Shown here piece by piece: positions 16,876 through 39,685 of a DNA stretch of 64,000 nt; the stretch's first letter is position 1; every line of letters begins with the position of its first letter. The notes beneath the pieces were generated by a model. That model was given only the letters and a program-made list of their open reading frames with translations, searched no databases and was not told the DNA's origin. Source of the stretch: Desulfobacteraceae bacterium (GTDB lineage Bacteria; Desulfobacterota; Desulfobacteria; Desulfobacterales; Desulfosalsimonadaceae); contig QZKW01000066.1 of NCBI GenBank assembly GCA_003599885.1, positions 62,001 to 126,000 of the forward strand, written 5' to 3'. The position numbers and the translations under genes are program-made.

Positions 16876-16942
16876 CGCAACGCCCCGGCTCACAGGTGAA
16901 GGTCGCACAGCGGACTGAATCCTTGTGGAGCCGGTTGTTATG
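16876..16942 (-). other. attC-like integron recombination site (site 2)
   Basis: On the minus strand an outer CATAAC / GTTGCG pair encloses complementary arms. CATAACAACCGGCTCCACAAGG (with a single extra base) faces the reverse complement CGCAAC..CCGGCTC-ACAGG, and a variable central loop separates them. Imperfect arms with an unpaired base and AAC/GTT cores are what define attC sites. It follows the stop of the gene at 16957-17505 by about 15 bases. Confidence 0.65.
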
Positions 16943-16956
16943 GATTATCAGCAAAT

Positions 16957-17505
16957 TTATGATGATTTATCCGTTTTTATCTGTTTTTGAAATTCTTCTA
17001 ATGCCTTCGAACCATCCTTCCATCTACTAATCTCTCCATACTCTTTATTTTTAAAACTTTTGTTTTGATTTAATGGGAGCAATTTCATCCGAATGCATTT
17101 GTCTATAACTCTTGACGTATAAAAGTAATTCCCGATTCTATGAGTATTGTGTCTTGGCCAAAACATCATCCGAGCTTGAAGGTAATTTGCAAAAAGAGCA
17201 AAAAATTCATTTAATGGGATCTGTCCTTTAATAACTGCAAAACACAACAAATTAAACTTAGCCTCTATGTGCTCTTGCTTCCGGTTACAGTTATAATCTC
17301 TGATATATCTTTCATCCTCATCTATATCTTCTGGCTCAGGTGGAATTATATCGCTTATATCTTTTACCTCATTCGGTTCATTAAGCTTCAGGTCCGAATA
17401 AAATTTGAATAAAAGATCATAACTGCGATTCCTACTCCCGAGACGAACAGCATAAAGTGATAGCAAAAGAGATACGATTGCAATAGCTATACTTACATAT
17501 TGCAT
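16957..17505 (-). CDS. hypothetical membrane-anchored protein (cassette gene)
   Basis: This 182-aa protein has one N-terminal membrane segment (residues 4-20, IAIAIVSLLLSLYAVRL) and a soluble, charged remainder with an acidic stretch PPEPEDIDEDE at about 62-72. I recognise no named domain. Codon use is AT-richer than the housekeeping genes. aaaggaaat precedes the start. It is the only ORF between two attC-like hairpins. Confidence 0.65.
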   Translation of the reverse strand: MQYVSIAIAIVSLLLSLYAVRLGSRNRSYDLLFKFYSDLKLNEPNEVKDISDIIPPEPEDIDEDERYIRDYNCNRKQEHIEAKFNLLCFAVIKGQIPLNEFFALFANYLQARMMFWPRHNTHRIGNYFYTSRVIDKCIRMKLLPLNQNKSFKNKEYGEISRWKDGSKALEEFQKQIKTDKSS

Positions 17506-17518
17506 TTATATTTCCTTT

Positions 17519-17577
17519 CCATAACATGCTGCTCTCCGGCGCGAGGAACGAGCGTCGGGAGCAGCAGCTGGTTATTA
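17519..17577 (-). other. attC-like integron recombination site (site 1)
   Basis: The core ATAAC at one end and GTTAT at the other enclose long imperfect arms (ccagctgctgctcccgacgc against atgctgctctccggcgc, compared as the same strand), leaving two extra bases on one arm. The site begins at the stop codon of the gene at 17575-17916 and ends just before the ribosome-binding site of the next, as in cassette arrays. Confidence 0.65.
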
Positions 17578-17916
17578 GCTTTTTGGTATTGCTTTAATTG
17601 CAGGGATCAACTCGGCAAATAAAAAATAGGCTGAGTATATTGTTCTGATCATCACAACAATAACTATAAATCGAGCAACCCACGCCCATCCCTGCCACTT
17701 AACGTTTTTGGAACACCGCCATACTGATATTAATGAAACAGCCAAGAATGCAAAGGTAACCAATATTAAGACAAGCCCAATGGTTTCTAATTTTGTTGTG
17801 TCGTCGAGAAGGGAAAAAATTAAAAGGTTTAAAAAAAGTATACAGATATAGCCTCCTACGAACAGGAGCCAAAAAGCCTGCCACAGCGACCTTTCACCAA
17901 TCCAAAATTTTTTCAT
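17575..17916 (-). CDS. hypothetical small membrane protein (cassette gene)
   Basis: This 113-aa protein has three hydrophobic helices (about residues 13-36, 45-66 and 79-101) and a short basic N-terminus (MKKFWIGER). No family is recognised. Base composition is AT-rich. It lies between attC-like sites 3 and 1; its stop codon forms part of site 1. Confidence 0.6.
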   Translation of the reverse strand: MKKFWIGERSLWQAFWLLFVGGYICILFLNLLIFSLLDDTTKLETIGLVLILVTFAFLAVSLISVWRCSKNVKWQGWAWVARFIVIVVMIRTIYSAYFLFAELIPAIKAIPKS

Positions 17917-17935
17917 TCTTACACTCTAATCTTAT

Positions 17936-18004
17936 GCTTATAACAAGCAATTCAAAAGTTTCTGGATATCTATAATAGACGGAAAGAGGCATTGCACTTA
18001 AAGC
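17936..18004 (-). other. possible attC-like site (site 3, degenerate)
   Basis: GCTTATAACAAGCAATTC at one end can pair imperfectly with GAAAGAGGCATTGCACTTAAAGC at the other, around a small inner hairpin tctattataga. The match is weaker than for the other sites and one core lacks AAC. Confidence 0.4.
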
Positions 18005-36068: not shown

Positions 36069-36093
36069 GTGTTGTTGGGGCTTTTATTTTTGT

Positions 36094-36130
36094 TTGACAA
36101 TTTAATATATATACGTACAACATACTGTAC
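36094..36130 (+). promoter_or_regulatory. promoter and operator-like palindrome of the toxin-antitoxin pair
   Basis: TTGACA (36094-36099), 16 bases, then TACAAC (36116-36121), which overlaps the palindrome GTAC-8-GTAC (36115-36130). Antitoxins of this type often repress their own promoter; the site is a candidate. Confidence 0.5.
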
Positions 36131-36145
36131 AGGAGGAATCAAAAA

Positions 36146-36397
36146 ATGGAAGCTATAACCTACACAGCTGCAAGACAAAATCTTGCAAAAACAATGGATA
36201 AGGTCTGTGATGACCGCTCGCCAATTATTGTGACACGCAAATCATCAAATTCTGTTGTTATCATGTCACTTGCTGATTATGAATCCCTTGAAGAAACAGC
36301 ATATCTTTTGCGATCACCTAAAAATACAAAGCGTCTTTTAGAATCAATCGTCCAGCTTGAAAATGGGAAGGGGCATGAAAAGGAGCTTATAGAGTGA
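36146..36397 (+). CDS. YefM/Phd family antitoxin
   Basis: This 83-aa antitoxin has AITYTAARQNLAKTMDKVCD, then PIIVTRKSSNSVVIMSLADY, the Phd/YefM dimerisation and DNA-binding fold, and a charged C-terminus that would wrap the toxin. aggaggaatc supplies the ribosome-binding site. The end overlaps the toxin gene by 4 bases. Such pairs are frequent integron passengers. Confidence 0.92.
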   Translation: MEAITYTAARQNLAKTMDKVCDDRSPIIVTRKSSNSVVIMSLADYESLEETAYLLRSPKNTKRLLESIVQLENGKGHEKELIE

Positions 36398-36648
36398 AGC
36401 TCATTTTTTCTGACCATGCATGGGACGATTACCTTTTCTGGCAAAAAACAGACCAACAAATTGCACACCGAATCAATAACCTGATCAACGATACAATGCG
36501 TAACCCATTTGAGGGCATTGGAAAACCTGAACCTTTAAAACATGCCCTCTCAGGGTATTGGTCCCGACGAATCACTGATGAACACCGGTTTGTCTACAAA
36601 GCCTCTGAAAATGCAATTGAAATAGCGCAACTCCGATACCACTATTGA
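36394..36648 (+). CDS. YoeB family mRNA interferase toxin
   Basis: This 84-aa RelE-fold toxin cuts mRNA in the ribosomal A site. It has SDHAWDDYLFWQKTD near the N-terminus, GIGKPEPLKHALSGYWSRRI, then DEHRFVYK and a terminal LRYHY, the YoeB signature with catalytic Glu, Arg and His positions. GTG start at 36394. The gene lies just left of an attC hairpin. Confidence 0.92.
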   Translation: MKLIFSDHAWDDYLFWQKTDQQIAHRINNLINDTMRNPFEGIGKPEPLKHALSGYWSRRITDEHRFVYKASENAIEIAQLRYHY

Positions 36649-36662
36649 CTCTTTAGATCCTG

Positions 36663-36723
36663 CCTCAACGTGAAAATCACAGGCGCCAGCAGTTAGGCGT
36701 CCTGTGCATTTTGTGGTTATGTG
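36663..36723 (-). other. attC integron recombination site (site A)
   Basis: On the minus strand the arms CACATAACCACAAAATGCACAGG-ACGCC and (reverse-complemented) CCTCAACGTGAAAATC-ACAGG-CGCC pair almost fully, with two extrahelical bases on one arm. The loop taactgct separates them, and the ends carry ATAAC and GTTGAGG cores. This is the strongest attC in the window. It sits right at the end of the gene at 36717-37229. Confidence 0.78.
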
Positions 36724-37229
36724 CCCCATTTAGCTCTTGTAATTATAATGAGTACGACAAGTATTGTTTCTAAGACAAATAAGCCTTCTACTATGGACTC
36801 TCGAATCATCATATACCGTTGCTGCCTGGCAGATCTATCAACTTCCTCCTGTCTATACTGTGCGGTGTATTCATCAATGAGTTGTCTCATTTCTTCTTCA
36901 GATCGGGCTGTCTTACGTACATCTTCAGGCACATCTGGCAGATCGTCCACTGTCAGTTTACCTATTTTATAATAATTCATCTTTATGGTTCGGAAATTCC
37001 ATATCAATAACCATAATGAGGTAATGCACGCCCCAATGAGAAGATAATTGAAGAAGACTGTTTTTTCATCAGACGACAAGACATCGATAGAGAAAAAAGT
37101 CAACAACAGACCGTTGATCGTGATTAGTGCGCTCCAGTAGATATTCACCGATTCAAGATATTTATCGATCAGTCGAACGTGATATTCTTTTCTATGGTCT
37201 TTCGCCAACGGTAAGTCCTTATTTTTCAT
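36717..37229 (-). CDS. hypothetical membrane protein (cassette gene, second in pair)
   Basis: This 170-aa protein has three hydrophobic segments (about residues 33-51, 60-82 and 147-165) and a charged loop DLPDVPEDVRKTARSEEEM between the second and third. I recognise no firm family; it resembles small cassette-borne membrane proteins such as the RipA-type octameric group. The start meets the end of the upstream lipoprotein gene, so the two share a cassette. The stop lies in the attC hairpin. Confidence 0.65.
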   Translation of the reverse strand: MKNKDLPLAKDHRKEYHVRLIDKYLESVNIYWSALITINGLLLTFFSIDVLSSDEKTVFFNYLLIGACITSLWLLIWNFRTIKMNYYKIGKLTVDDLPDVPEDVRKTARSEEEMRQLIDEYTAQYRQEEVDRSARQQRYMMIRESIVEGLFVLETILVVLIIITRAKWGT

Positions 37230-37747
37230 TATTGATTTTTCAAGGATACTGCTGACAGATTGGACATCATATCTGCGACTGCAATATTATATGCGTCTTG
37301 AGAAACAGCTTTGGCTGTAGCATAACCCCACATATTTGATCGGTGCGCATTCCCTTCAGCGTTCCAATTTCCAATGATGTTGTTTTGGGAGTCTATTAAT
37401 TTTATACGAAGTTTCGTCAAACCATTCCAGTTTCCAAGTGTGAAAAATGAACGGTGCTCAATAATATCAATCTGCAAATTATACAAAGATCGACTACCTA
37501 CTATTTTTTCAGATGATAAGGCACTCAAAATTTGACCTTTTATTGCTTGGATTAATTGCTCGGAATTTTCTTTTTCCGCGCGCAAATCATTTACCTGCAC
37601 CCGAACAACATCTGATGGCATTCCTGACAAACTATACTGTGTTCCAATAGGCTCTGGAGTGTATTGTTTTGTTTGAGCGCATCCTGCAAAGACCACGATT
37701 AGGATGAACAAGAATGAAAAGCGAGAAAAGTATTTTTTCATTGCCAC
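37229..37747 (-). CDS. hypothetical lipoprotein (cassette gene, first in pair)
   Basis: The 172-aa precursor has a signal ending in VVFAGC, so it is probably lipid-anchored. The mature part is beta-rich with no named domain: VRVQVNDLRAEKENSEQL, LQIDIIEHRSF, LRIKLIDSQNN. It is overlapped by or touches the next gene. cggaggtggca precedes the start. The base composition is AT-rich. Confidence 0.65.
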   Translation of the reverse strand: MAMKKYFSRFSFLFILIVVFAGCAQTKQYTPEPIGTQYSLSGMPSDVVRVQVNDLRAEKENSEQLIQAIKGQILSALSSEKIVGSRSLYNLQIDIIEHRSFFTLGNWNGLTKLRIKLIDSQNNIIGNWNAEGNAHRSNMWGYATAKAVSQDAYNIAVADMMSNLSAVSLKNQ

Positions 37748-37775
37748 CTCCGAAAATTGTATTGCCCGTCACAAG

Positions 37776-37945
37776 CACATAACATTAAATGGATTGATCC
37801 GCATAAGATGCCGGATTTTGGTTTTCTGTCCGCATAATATGCTATTGAATGCATTTCACTTGACACATTAACATACTATAATTGTAAGCTTTTACTTTAC
37901 ACATCATTTTATCACGGCATGTTGTGCGGATCGGCATAACATGCC
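37776..37945 (-). other. candidate attI region with three direct repeats
   Basis: On the plus strand three near-copies of tccgcataaNatg occur: near 37798 (tccgcataagatg), 37840 (tccgcataatatg) and 37932 (tcggcataacatg). A CACATAAC core at 37776-37783 sits next to the first cassette gene. Repeats plus a core beside intI are what an attI site looks like. No published match can be claimed. Confidence 0.4.
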
Positions 37946-37957
37946 TCATGAGTCACT

Positions 37958-38389
37958 TTAAAGCTCGTCCATCGGACTGCGAACACCGGACGGACCTCGG
38001 TTGAGGACATGGGTATAAATCATCGTGGTCTTGACATCGCTATGGCCCAAAAGTTCCTGCACCGTTCGGATGTCGTAACCTCCTTCGAGCAAATGGGTGG
38101 CGAAGGAATGCCGGAAGGTGTGGCAAGTGGCTCGCTTCATTATATTTGCAGTCATTACTGCATCCCTGACAGCCTTTTGAACCAATGATTCGTCAATGTG
38201 ATGGCGGCCTTGTTCCCTTGTGGTGGGATTGATCCACCGGTTTTCCTGGGGGAAGAACCATTGCCACCGCCATTCAACAGGGGCATTCGGGTATTTCCGG
38301 TCTAACACATCGGGCATCGCCACCCGGCCCCATCCATCGGCCATATCCTTATCATGAATGACTTTGACTTTTCCCAAATGGCATAGCCG
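37958..38389 (-). pseudogene. intI: truncated integron integrase, C-terminal half
   Basis: The residues [20 protein letters not shown], then [16 protein letters not shown], and [18 protein letters not shown] belong to the IntI-only insert found in integron integrases. They continue with the tyrosine-recombinase box [40 protein letters not shown] (catalytic R, H-x-x-R region and Y) and the usual ending GVRSPMDEL. The N-terminal ~180 residues, including the first catalytic Arg, are missing: a stop lies at 38387-38389 and a repeat element follows. It cannot be active. Confidence 0.92.
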
Positions 38390-38416
38390 TCAGCCTAAAG
38401 GCAAAAATCAGTTTTT

Positions 38417-38640
38417 GCCCCAACGGGGCTGCGTCATAAAGCCCAGGGTTGCGGCGAAAGCCGCAACCCTGGGAATATATCCGATCATGATTTTCTACCC
38501 CAACGGGGTTGCGTAATATTCCGATGTGTCGCCCATATCCGGACGCAACCCCGGCGGGGTTGGGAAATGTTTGCTTGGTTATCCCAGAGTAGCGGCTTTC
38601 GCCACAACTCTGGGCTATGATACGGAATCCCGTTGGGATT
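38417..38640. repeat. REP-like composite palindromic repeats
   Basis: The stretch holds two long hairpins in opposite orientation. One is cccagggttgcggc-gaaa-gccgcaaccctggg (38442-38473, perfect 14-bp stem); the other is cccagagtagcggc-tttc-gccacaactctggg (38583-38614). Between and around them are ccccaacgggg-type short palindromes. Units of this type are dispersed in many bacterial genomes, often with a REP-associated transposase. Confidence 0.8.
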
Positions 38641-38947: not shown

Positions 38948-39685
38948 ATGACCGAAACACTGCTCCCGGATGTTTTGATGCCGGATGTTTTATTAAATGA
39001 CGCTCAGATTGACGAAGCCGTGGCCTTTATTAATGAACGGGTTGCCGCCCATGTGTACCGTGGATCGCTGGAAATCGGAGAATACGTTCTCGTCAGGTTC
39101 TTTAACAATAACATCCGGCTTGCCGGGTCAATGAATGGTCATAAATCCGTCAGTTACAGCAAATTGTGCAACCATCCGGAGCTCTGCGTATCACGTTCCA
39201 CCCTGACGAACATGGTGAAAACATTTGCCCAGGAAGGCTTCCTGAATGACGGAGGGATTTCAAGTCATGAAATGAAATACAGCCATAAAATTGCATTGAC
39301 CCGGATGGAAAACAATGAAGAAAAGCTTGCCCTGGCGCGGGAATGCATTGAAGAAAATATAAGCGTGGAAGAACTCAAACAACGGGTTCGGGAGATACGT
39401 GCACAATCCATCAGTCAGACGGTCAGCCCGGTGATGGCCGCGGAAAAACACCTGATGCGCGTTCAGCGATGGATCCGGGGCGTGAGTACGCCGGATGGGT
39501 TAACGGACAGGAATGTTATCGCCGGCGCGGATCATGCTGAAAGACAAAAAATGCTGGATATGGCGGGCGGGATTCTGGAGGATATGTCCGTCATCACCAA
39601 TGCCATACGGCAATTGGTGACGATTTTAACCGAAACGCCTGAAGTTCCGGCAATCGAAACACCGCCTTCTCCAGGAGAGGCGTGA
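38948..39685 (+). CDS. hypothetical protein with HTH-like regions
   Basis: This 245-aa soluble protein is of unknown family. A helix-rich region CVSRSTLTNMVKTFAQEGFL looks like a helix-turn-helix (~78-97). The segment KIALTRMENNEEKLALARE followed by ENISVEELKQRVREI resembles the ParB/KorB DNA-binding helix pattern. The end is Pro-rich. It lies between the integron remnant and the leucine operon. A role in DNA binding is inference. Confidence 0.6.
   Translation: MTETLLPDVLMPDVLLNDAQIDEAVAFINERVAAHVYRGSLEIGEYVLVRFFNNNIRLAGSMNGHKSVSYSKLCNHPELCVSRSTLTNMVKTFAQEGFLNDGGISSHEMKYSHKIALTRMENNEEKLALARECIEENISVEELKQRVREIRAQSISQTVSPVMAAEKHLMRVQRWIRGVSTPDGLTDRNVIAGADHAERQKMLDMAGGILEDMSVITNAIRQLVTILTETPEVPAIETPPSPGEA

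Follow-up and report, generated by a model that had tools for sequence, protein, structure and literature searches.

Here we describe a stretch of a Desulfobacteraceae genome in which the end of an integron integrase gene (intI), an attI site, a two-gene cassette and an attC site follow one another on a single strand. The window, that is, the whole 64,000-nucleotide stretch of DNA that was analysed, lies on contig C2 of genome G000, and on its minus strand, from position 38380 downwards, the order is intI 3′ end, attI, cassette and attC (Table 1). The direction of each part was called separately: the attC polarity is minus by the covariance model, and the cassette open reading frames (ORFs) and intI are likewise on the minus strand.

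Table 1. Positions of the features in the window, with the evidence for each
Feature	Position	Strand	Evidence or remark
intI 3′ remnant, last ~140 residues, 5′ part lost	37958-38380	-	TIGR02249; identity to L054/L074
attI, reverse type	37781-37950	-	nhmmer profile, E 6.7e-17; R3 model, E 1.4e-8
Crossover G/TT closing attI	G 37783; TT 37782-37781	-	
Integrated gene cassette 1, 1114 bp, two ORFs	36669-37782	-	both ends set by G/TT
Cassette ORF 1, 172 aa	37229-37747	-	lipoprotein-like N-terminus, VFAGC (by eye)
Cassette ORF 2, 170 aa, small membrane-protein-like	36717-37229	-	stop codon in attC R″
attC of cassette 1	36662-36722	-	covariance model R2; own scanner
Candidate truncated second cassette with TA pair in reverse orientation	36074-36668	-	R″-like octamer
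YefM-type antitoxin gene	36146-36397	+	PF02604, E 1.7e-22
YoeB/Txe-type toxin gene	36394-36648	+	PF06769, E 8.4e-40; TIGR02116, E 1.3e-34
Palindromic ~230-bp repeat	38412-38640		adjoins truncated 5′ side of intI
Separate integrase-less cassette pair	16878-17950	-	R2 hits 17519-17577 (E 0.02) and 16878-16940 (E 0.07)

The intI remnant and the sites that follow it

The intI remnant is an ORF (about 37958-38377) that matches the NCBIfam family TIGR02249, ‘integron integrase’, at E 2.6e-66 over profile positions 178-315 of 315, and over residues 176-315 it is 71% identical to the IntI of the Desulfobacteraceae UBA2245 integron (L054/L074). The gene is truncated at residue ~176, which corrects an earlier note, and the truncation point adjoins the palindromic repeat. 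The fragment retains HTFRHSF and YTHV; SGLRL (128) and GKVAKDR (155) of the intact relative are absent from it, and with them the catalytic Box I arginine and the lysine region. Since the first catalytic arginine and the lysine are missing, the integrase is dead. A functional integron needs a complete catalytic integrase in cis, which the locus does not have, and no intact integrase was found anywhere in its genome (a 90-contig draft, 98.8% complete), where the only matches were to partial IntI or to Xer-like proteins. The ~230-bp repeat (CCCCAACGGGG family) has eight matches on five contigs of the genome, both strands counted, and lies just upstream of three reverse loci with an attI or a stub: the one in the window, one at C51:18847-19074 of the same genome and one on contig C440 of the congener G007. 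This repeat may have been the agent that broke intI.

Other damaged intI genes were seen nearby and in the genus. A second remnant in the same genome, made of N-terminal and middle pieces (L030; contig C1, about 239445-239815), adjoins a paralogue of the ParB-HTH-like gene that lies at 38948-39685 of the window, near the intI stub. In two congeners, intI has similar internal deletions (L045, G004 C69; L067, G005 C93), with residues of about 164-278 and 185-268 missing, and a lexA-like gene comes after it (by eye).

The attI site directly follows the intI stop at 37958, in an intergenic stretch of about 210 bases between intI and the cassette ORFs. A profile was made from the sequence that follows intI in 49 loci of an 80-locus comparison set, the window not among them. 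With a cut-off of E 1e-3 it has a single match in the window, at 37950-37765(-), and the alignment extends through the conserved GTT where cassettes start. A second model of the 3′ half of attI, R3, built from 28 loci, matches 37850-37780(-). Pairwise identities between attI sites were left unused as uninformative, the shuffled baseline being 72.8%. A consensus promoter scan detected no minus-strand sigma-70-like promoter in attI; it returned five promoter-like sites against a mean of 6.9 in shuffled sequences, which is not above the shuffles.

The two cassette ORFs are adjacent and AT-rich. Neither product belongs to a Pfam or NCBIfam family, and neither has a homologue in any of the 59 other related genomes (60 searched), which is as expected of a captured cassette. 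The second protein has a match to PADLOC PycTM over residues 10-79 that, at E 1.2e-4, is too weak to name a function. Top-strand attC sites carry their extra L″-side bases in the 5′ arm, and the site that closes the cassette, with arms R″ ACATAAC and R′ GTTGAGG, also has them there; counted against it is the final base of R′, which deviates from GTTRRRY. This attC is the best match in the window (34.4 bits, E 3e-5) to R2, a covariance model trained on 18 attC sites from other loci, the window site being excluded and the structure written from one of the training sites; R2 saw both kinds of integron, as 15 of its 18 training sites belong to reverse loci and 3 to normal ones. Since the opposite strand of the same palindrome was not reported by R2, the polarity of the attC is resolved. 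Just after attI, GTTATGTGC is the exact reverse complement of R″ GCACATAAC (9/9 bases), so that R″ is complementary to the 5′ end at the junction, as in a gene cassette. Such matching ends are what a circular cassette opened at G/TT demands, and they therefore set the cassette at 36669-37782.

The original prediction had put an IntI fragment, a two-gene AT-rich cassette and an attC hairpin on the minus side, a candidate attI at the 3′ side of intI and a TA pair at the far end on the other strand, and had proposed a covariance search for attC. The TIGR02249 match, the ORF list and the covariance model bear out the first of these points, the profile drawn from 49 other loci recovers the attI, the pair is of the YefM/YoeB type, and the search returned the minus-strand attC given above.

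Beyond the attC, the YefM/YoeB pair is followed by an rsgA-like gene, and the covariance model found no attC belonging to the pair. An R″-like GCCCCAAC at 36074-36081 fits GTTGAGGC at 7 of 8 positions, and from this slight sequence resemblance it is possible that the pair sits in a truncated second cassette. Some 20 kb from the integron remnant and in the same direction lies the separate cassette pair, in which each of two AT-rich ORFs has after it an attC-like site whose R′ and R″ arms match (by eye); no attI match was found there.

Orientation among the relatives of the integrase

For comparison we used 80 named loci encoding an IntI like that of L013 (Desulfobacteraceae UBA2245), which span Chlorobiota, Planctomycetota, Nitrospirota, Actinomycetota, Thermodesulfobacteriota and others. 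R2, at E up to 0.1, found 101 attC hits, spread over 46 of the 80 loci. Of these hits, 82 were 3′ of intI and shared its strand, 14 were 5′ of it on the other strand, and the rest were 5′ on the same strand (3) or 3′ on the other (2). By locus, the orientation was reverse in 37 and normal in 9, and 34 had no attC call. Where a loose scanner had been ambiguous (L105, L106, L117, L125, L082), the covariance model called all reverse except L106, which had no hit and stayed unlabelled. Nine further relatives from the genus, family or order are normal, with labels set by hand.

These labels were laid over an IntI tree of 94 rows (quick IQ-TREE, SH-aLRT only; L145 and L151 omitted for in-frame stops), in which orientation switches once among the 54 labelled rows, 36 reverse and 18 normal, the labels coming from the covariance-model calls, with 34 of the 80 loci unlabelled, and the rows including neither the T. 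denticola IntI nor that of any other Treponema. That the attC model and the orientation labels draw on common loci counts against our explanation. The window fragment falls inside the reverse side, a branch of 61 rows with an SH-aLRT of 99, and within it in a seven-row set at 96; its nearest relative is L090 (83% identity), and L090, L126 and L074/L054, the nearest IntIs, are all reverse. The same clade holds reverse loci from Chlorobiaceae and Planctomycetota (L087, L091, L097, L081, L103).

Could the locus instead be a normal, divergent integron in which the 3′ end of intI has been inverted relative to its cassettes, giving an accidental reverse look? Normal divergent integrons do occur intact in the same genus, in G004, G005 and G006 (L034, L038, L035, L036, L033), and an intact divergent relative is what the original prediction had named as the finding that would overturn it. 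However, the IntIs of these integrons, about 47-60% identical to the reference IntI of the clade, lie across the tree split, while the window IntI groups with the reverse loci, and attI stands 3′ of intI as it does in the 49 other loci. A local inversion was thus rejected on the position of attI and the IntI phylogeny, and we hold it to be very improbable. The alignment of intI, attI and cassette, together with the IntI tree, supports a reverse architecture that was inherited. A shared direction with attI 3′ of intI is the rule in the clade of the window IntI, so the predicted reverse arrangement stands; the name ‘integron’ has to give way to ‘integron remnant’, as genome searches gave no intact integrase. 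We are highly confident that the locus is a decayed reverse-type (Treponema-type) chromosomal integron, of which there survive the docking site and one captured two-gene cassette, most of the recombinase gene being gone.

Several relatives carry reverse units in series. At L105:1279-5686, two decayed units, each a remnant, attI, cassette and attC, precede a full-length intI with its attI, and this intI sits between an attC and an attI of equal polarity. Tandem chains of stub, attI and cassette also occur in L089 and L149, and in L098 a few intI-like codons are all that accompanies a second attI. A bolder suggestion comes from the L105 arrays: since intI there has an attC upstream and its own attI on the other side, the gene may be able to excise in the manner of a cassette.

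Many 3′ recombinase fragments in relatives (L055, L057, L071 and others) were considered as reverse intI stubs and set aside. Several of them adjoin an inverted repeat, TTATGCCGA..TCGGCATAA, and genes that we take to be IS91-like (by eye); those of L057, L055, L071 and L044 start at or near RHSFAT, right after the repeat. The arrangement resembles a mobile element whose boundary within recombinase genes is fixed.

attI sites without an integrase

With R3 at E up to 0.05, the genome of the window has seven attI-like sites: the one in the window, two on C11 (85623 and 59287) and one each on C51 (19391), C7 (67760), C32 (4750) and C37 (11585). An eighth, on C6 (L174:2966-3117), matches the attI profile at E 0.05 and stands beside a 25-residue intI stub. 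The seven sites besides that of the window have no intact integrase, and most have a downstream cassette. Across the related genomes, R3 matched 18 of 60 at E up to 0.05, some weakly, with five sites in the congener G001 and four in G007. TblastN placed intI remnants next to the sites in the window, C11a, C37, C6 and one in G007; it detected no remnant within up to 1.5 kb upstream of the remaining orphan sites.

We studied 22 attI sites, namely the seven R3 sites of the genome, C6, 13 sites in other genomes and the intact G047. A same-strand downstream attC was present at 18 of them, at only E 0.18 for C11a and E 0.045 for C32, and two of the four sites without one are near contig ends. Of the attC hits at 21 fetched loci, 22 of 23 lay downstream of attI on its strand. 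When the junction was compared with the R″ of the first attC at the 18 sites, the total score was 120, whereas permutations averaged 90.2 (sd 3.7) and none of 10000 scored as high; the same held (0/10000) for the 16 sites that remain without the window and G047. The junction fit and the same-strand downstream attCs show that cassettes are docked at these attI sites.

The same figures bear on the idea that the locus is a matter of chance, an intI fragment that happens to lie beside unrelated ORFs and a random hairpin. Palindromes resembling attC do arise randomly, and the loose scanner picked up the repeat at 38498-38565 as well; the covariance model, however, did not match that repeat at E up to 10. 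At the locus, two separate models, for attI (E 6.7e-17) and attC (E 3e-5), coincide with an exact junction match, and the fit at 18 sites beats every permutation, so that we give the chance explanation practically no credence.

One group of sites is shared between species. In G000 (C11), G001 (C253) and G007 (C440), an attI lies between a biotin-carboxyl-carrier-type carboxylase gene and sucC-sucD (names assigned by eye), with no intI in any of the three, wholly different cassettes, and no ORF shared among them between attI and sucC (blastp, 1e-8). In all eight other congeners with both genes on one contig (G002-G006, G008-G010), 34-191 bases separate the two, and neither attI (E up to 1) nor attC (E up to 0.5) is present in the gap. 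In the sucD tree, the three attI-bearing copies and G001_C248 form one four-row clade (100/99); the latter is unlabelled, its contig ending 362 bases upstream, and G000 and G001 each have a second sucC. Because the attI-bearing copies fall in one clade and attI is absent from the same gap in eight species, attI probably reached the gap once and the cassettes then turned over, either through an integrase acting in trans after intI loss or with separate losses of intI. The sequences to the left of attI differ among the three species, so intI could have been lost three times, and action in trans is not proven. A second shared case is an attI after a cysS-like gene, common to G000 and G007. On the wider proposal that reverse-type attI sites persist in the genus as scattered integrase-less docking sites whose cassettes are exchanged by an integrase in trans, we remain doubtful.

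Cassettes without an integrase can also come about by off-target insertion, the work of an integrase elsewhere in the genome, which would make the locus a CALIN. The missing integrase in cis fits this origin, as do the attC-like hits scattered through the genome (15 at E up to 1). Yet here attI and the 3′ end of intI head the cassette, which implies a docking site that once had its own integrase, and we think off-target insertion a very improbable origin for the locus. The same explanation may apply to attC loci without attI, such as that at 16.9-17.9 kb.

Relation to known integrons

Reverse integrons have been published for Treponema, Chlorobium phaeobacteroides and Blastopirellula marina (PMC6557892, PMC3607928), and in PMC3607928 the Chlorobium and Blastopirellula IntIs cluster with that of Treponema. 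The chromosomal integron of Treponema denticola likewise has an attI that lies 3′ of intI, an intI that is read towards it, cassettes that point the same way, a G/TT junction and a cassette stop codon in attC R″ (PMC3607928, PMC7691350), the last as in its ddl cassette (PMC7691350). It differs from the locus in the window, where intI is truncated, one complete cassette remains and the host is a relative of Desulfobacteraceae UBA2245, of the same order. The Chlorobium and Blastopirellula integrons share the layout, with a full-length intI. The intact reverse relative, the UBA2245 integron, has in L054 an attI at 2258-2093 and two attC sites 3′ of intI on the same strand, and unlike the window locus it has a full-length integrase and different cassettes. 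CALINs, by the definition given in PMC8618304, resemble the locus in having cassettes without a working integrase in cis; the locus falls outside that definition, as both attI and an intI 3′ stub are kept at its head. Integrase loss, off-target insertion and rearrangement are named there as routes to CALINs (PMC8618304).

The ancestral IntI would have carried out recombination at G/TT between attI and the attC of a circular cassette, folded from the bottom strand, so that the two-gene cassette came to lie directly 3′ of intI. Loss of the 5′ part of intI would have come later, with the repeat now at the break, and the locus could then no longer move cassettes with its own enzyme. Judging from Treponema, expression of the cassette probably starts within attI or upstream of it. 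With 140 IntI residues and one complete cassette remaining, the function of the locus cannot be read off.

A reverse chromosomal integron is an already known kind of element, and the dispersed integrase-less attI sites are the new part; we found no description of them in the literature searched, chiefly non-subscription papers, where a search on such sites led to work on intI pseudogenes. The locus confirms a clean and seldom annotated integron layout, and the conserved attI 3′ of intI is a portable signature that locates such sites even after the integrase is lost. Where an integrase-less cassette is headed by an attI, loss of the integrase can be told from off-target insertion; these two routes to CALINs are otherwise difficult to distinguish. 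If integrase-less attI sites do exchange cassettes in trans, the reach of an integron would be genome-wide and not confined to one locus.
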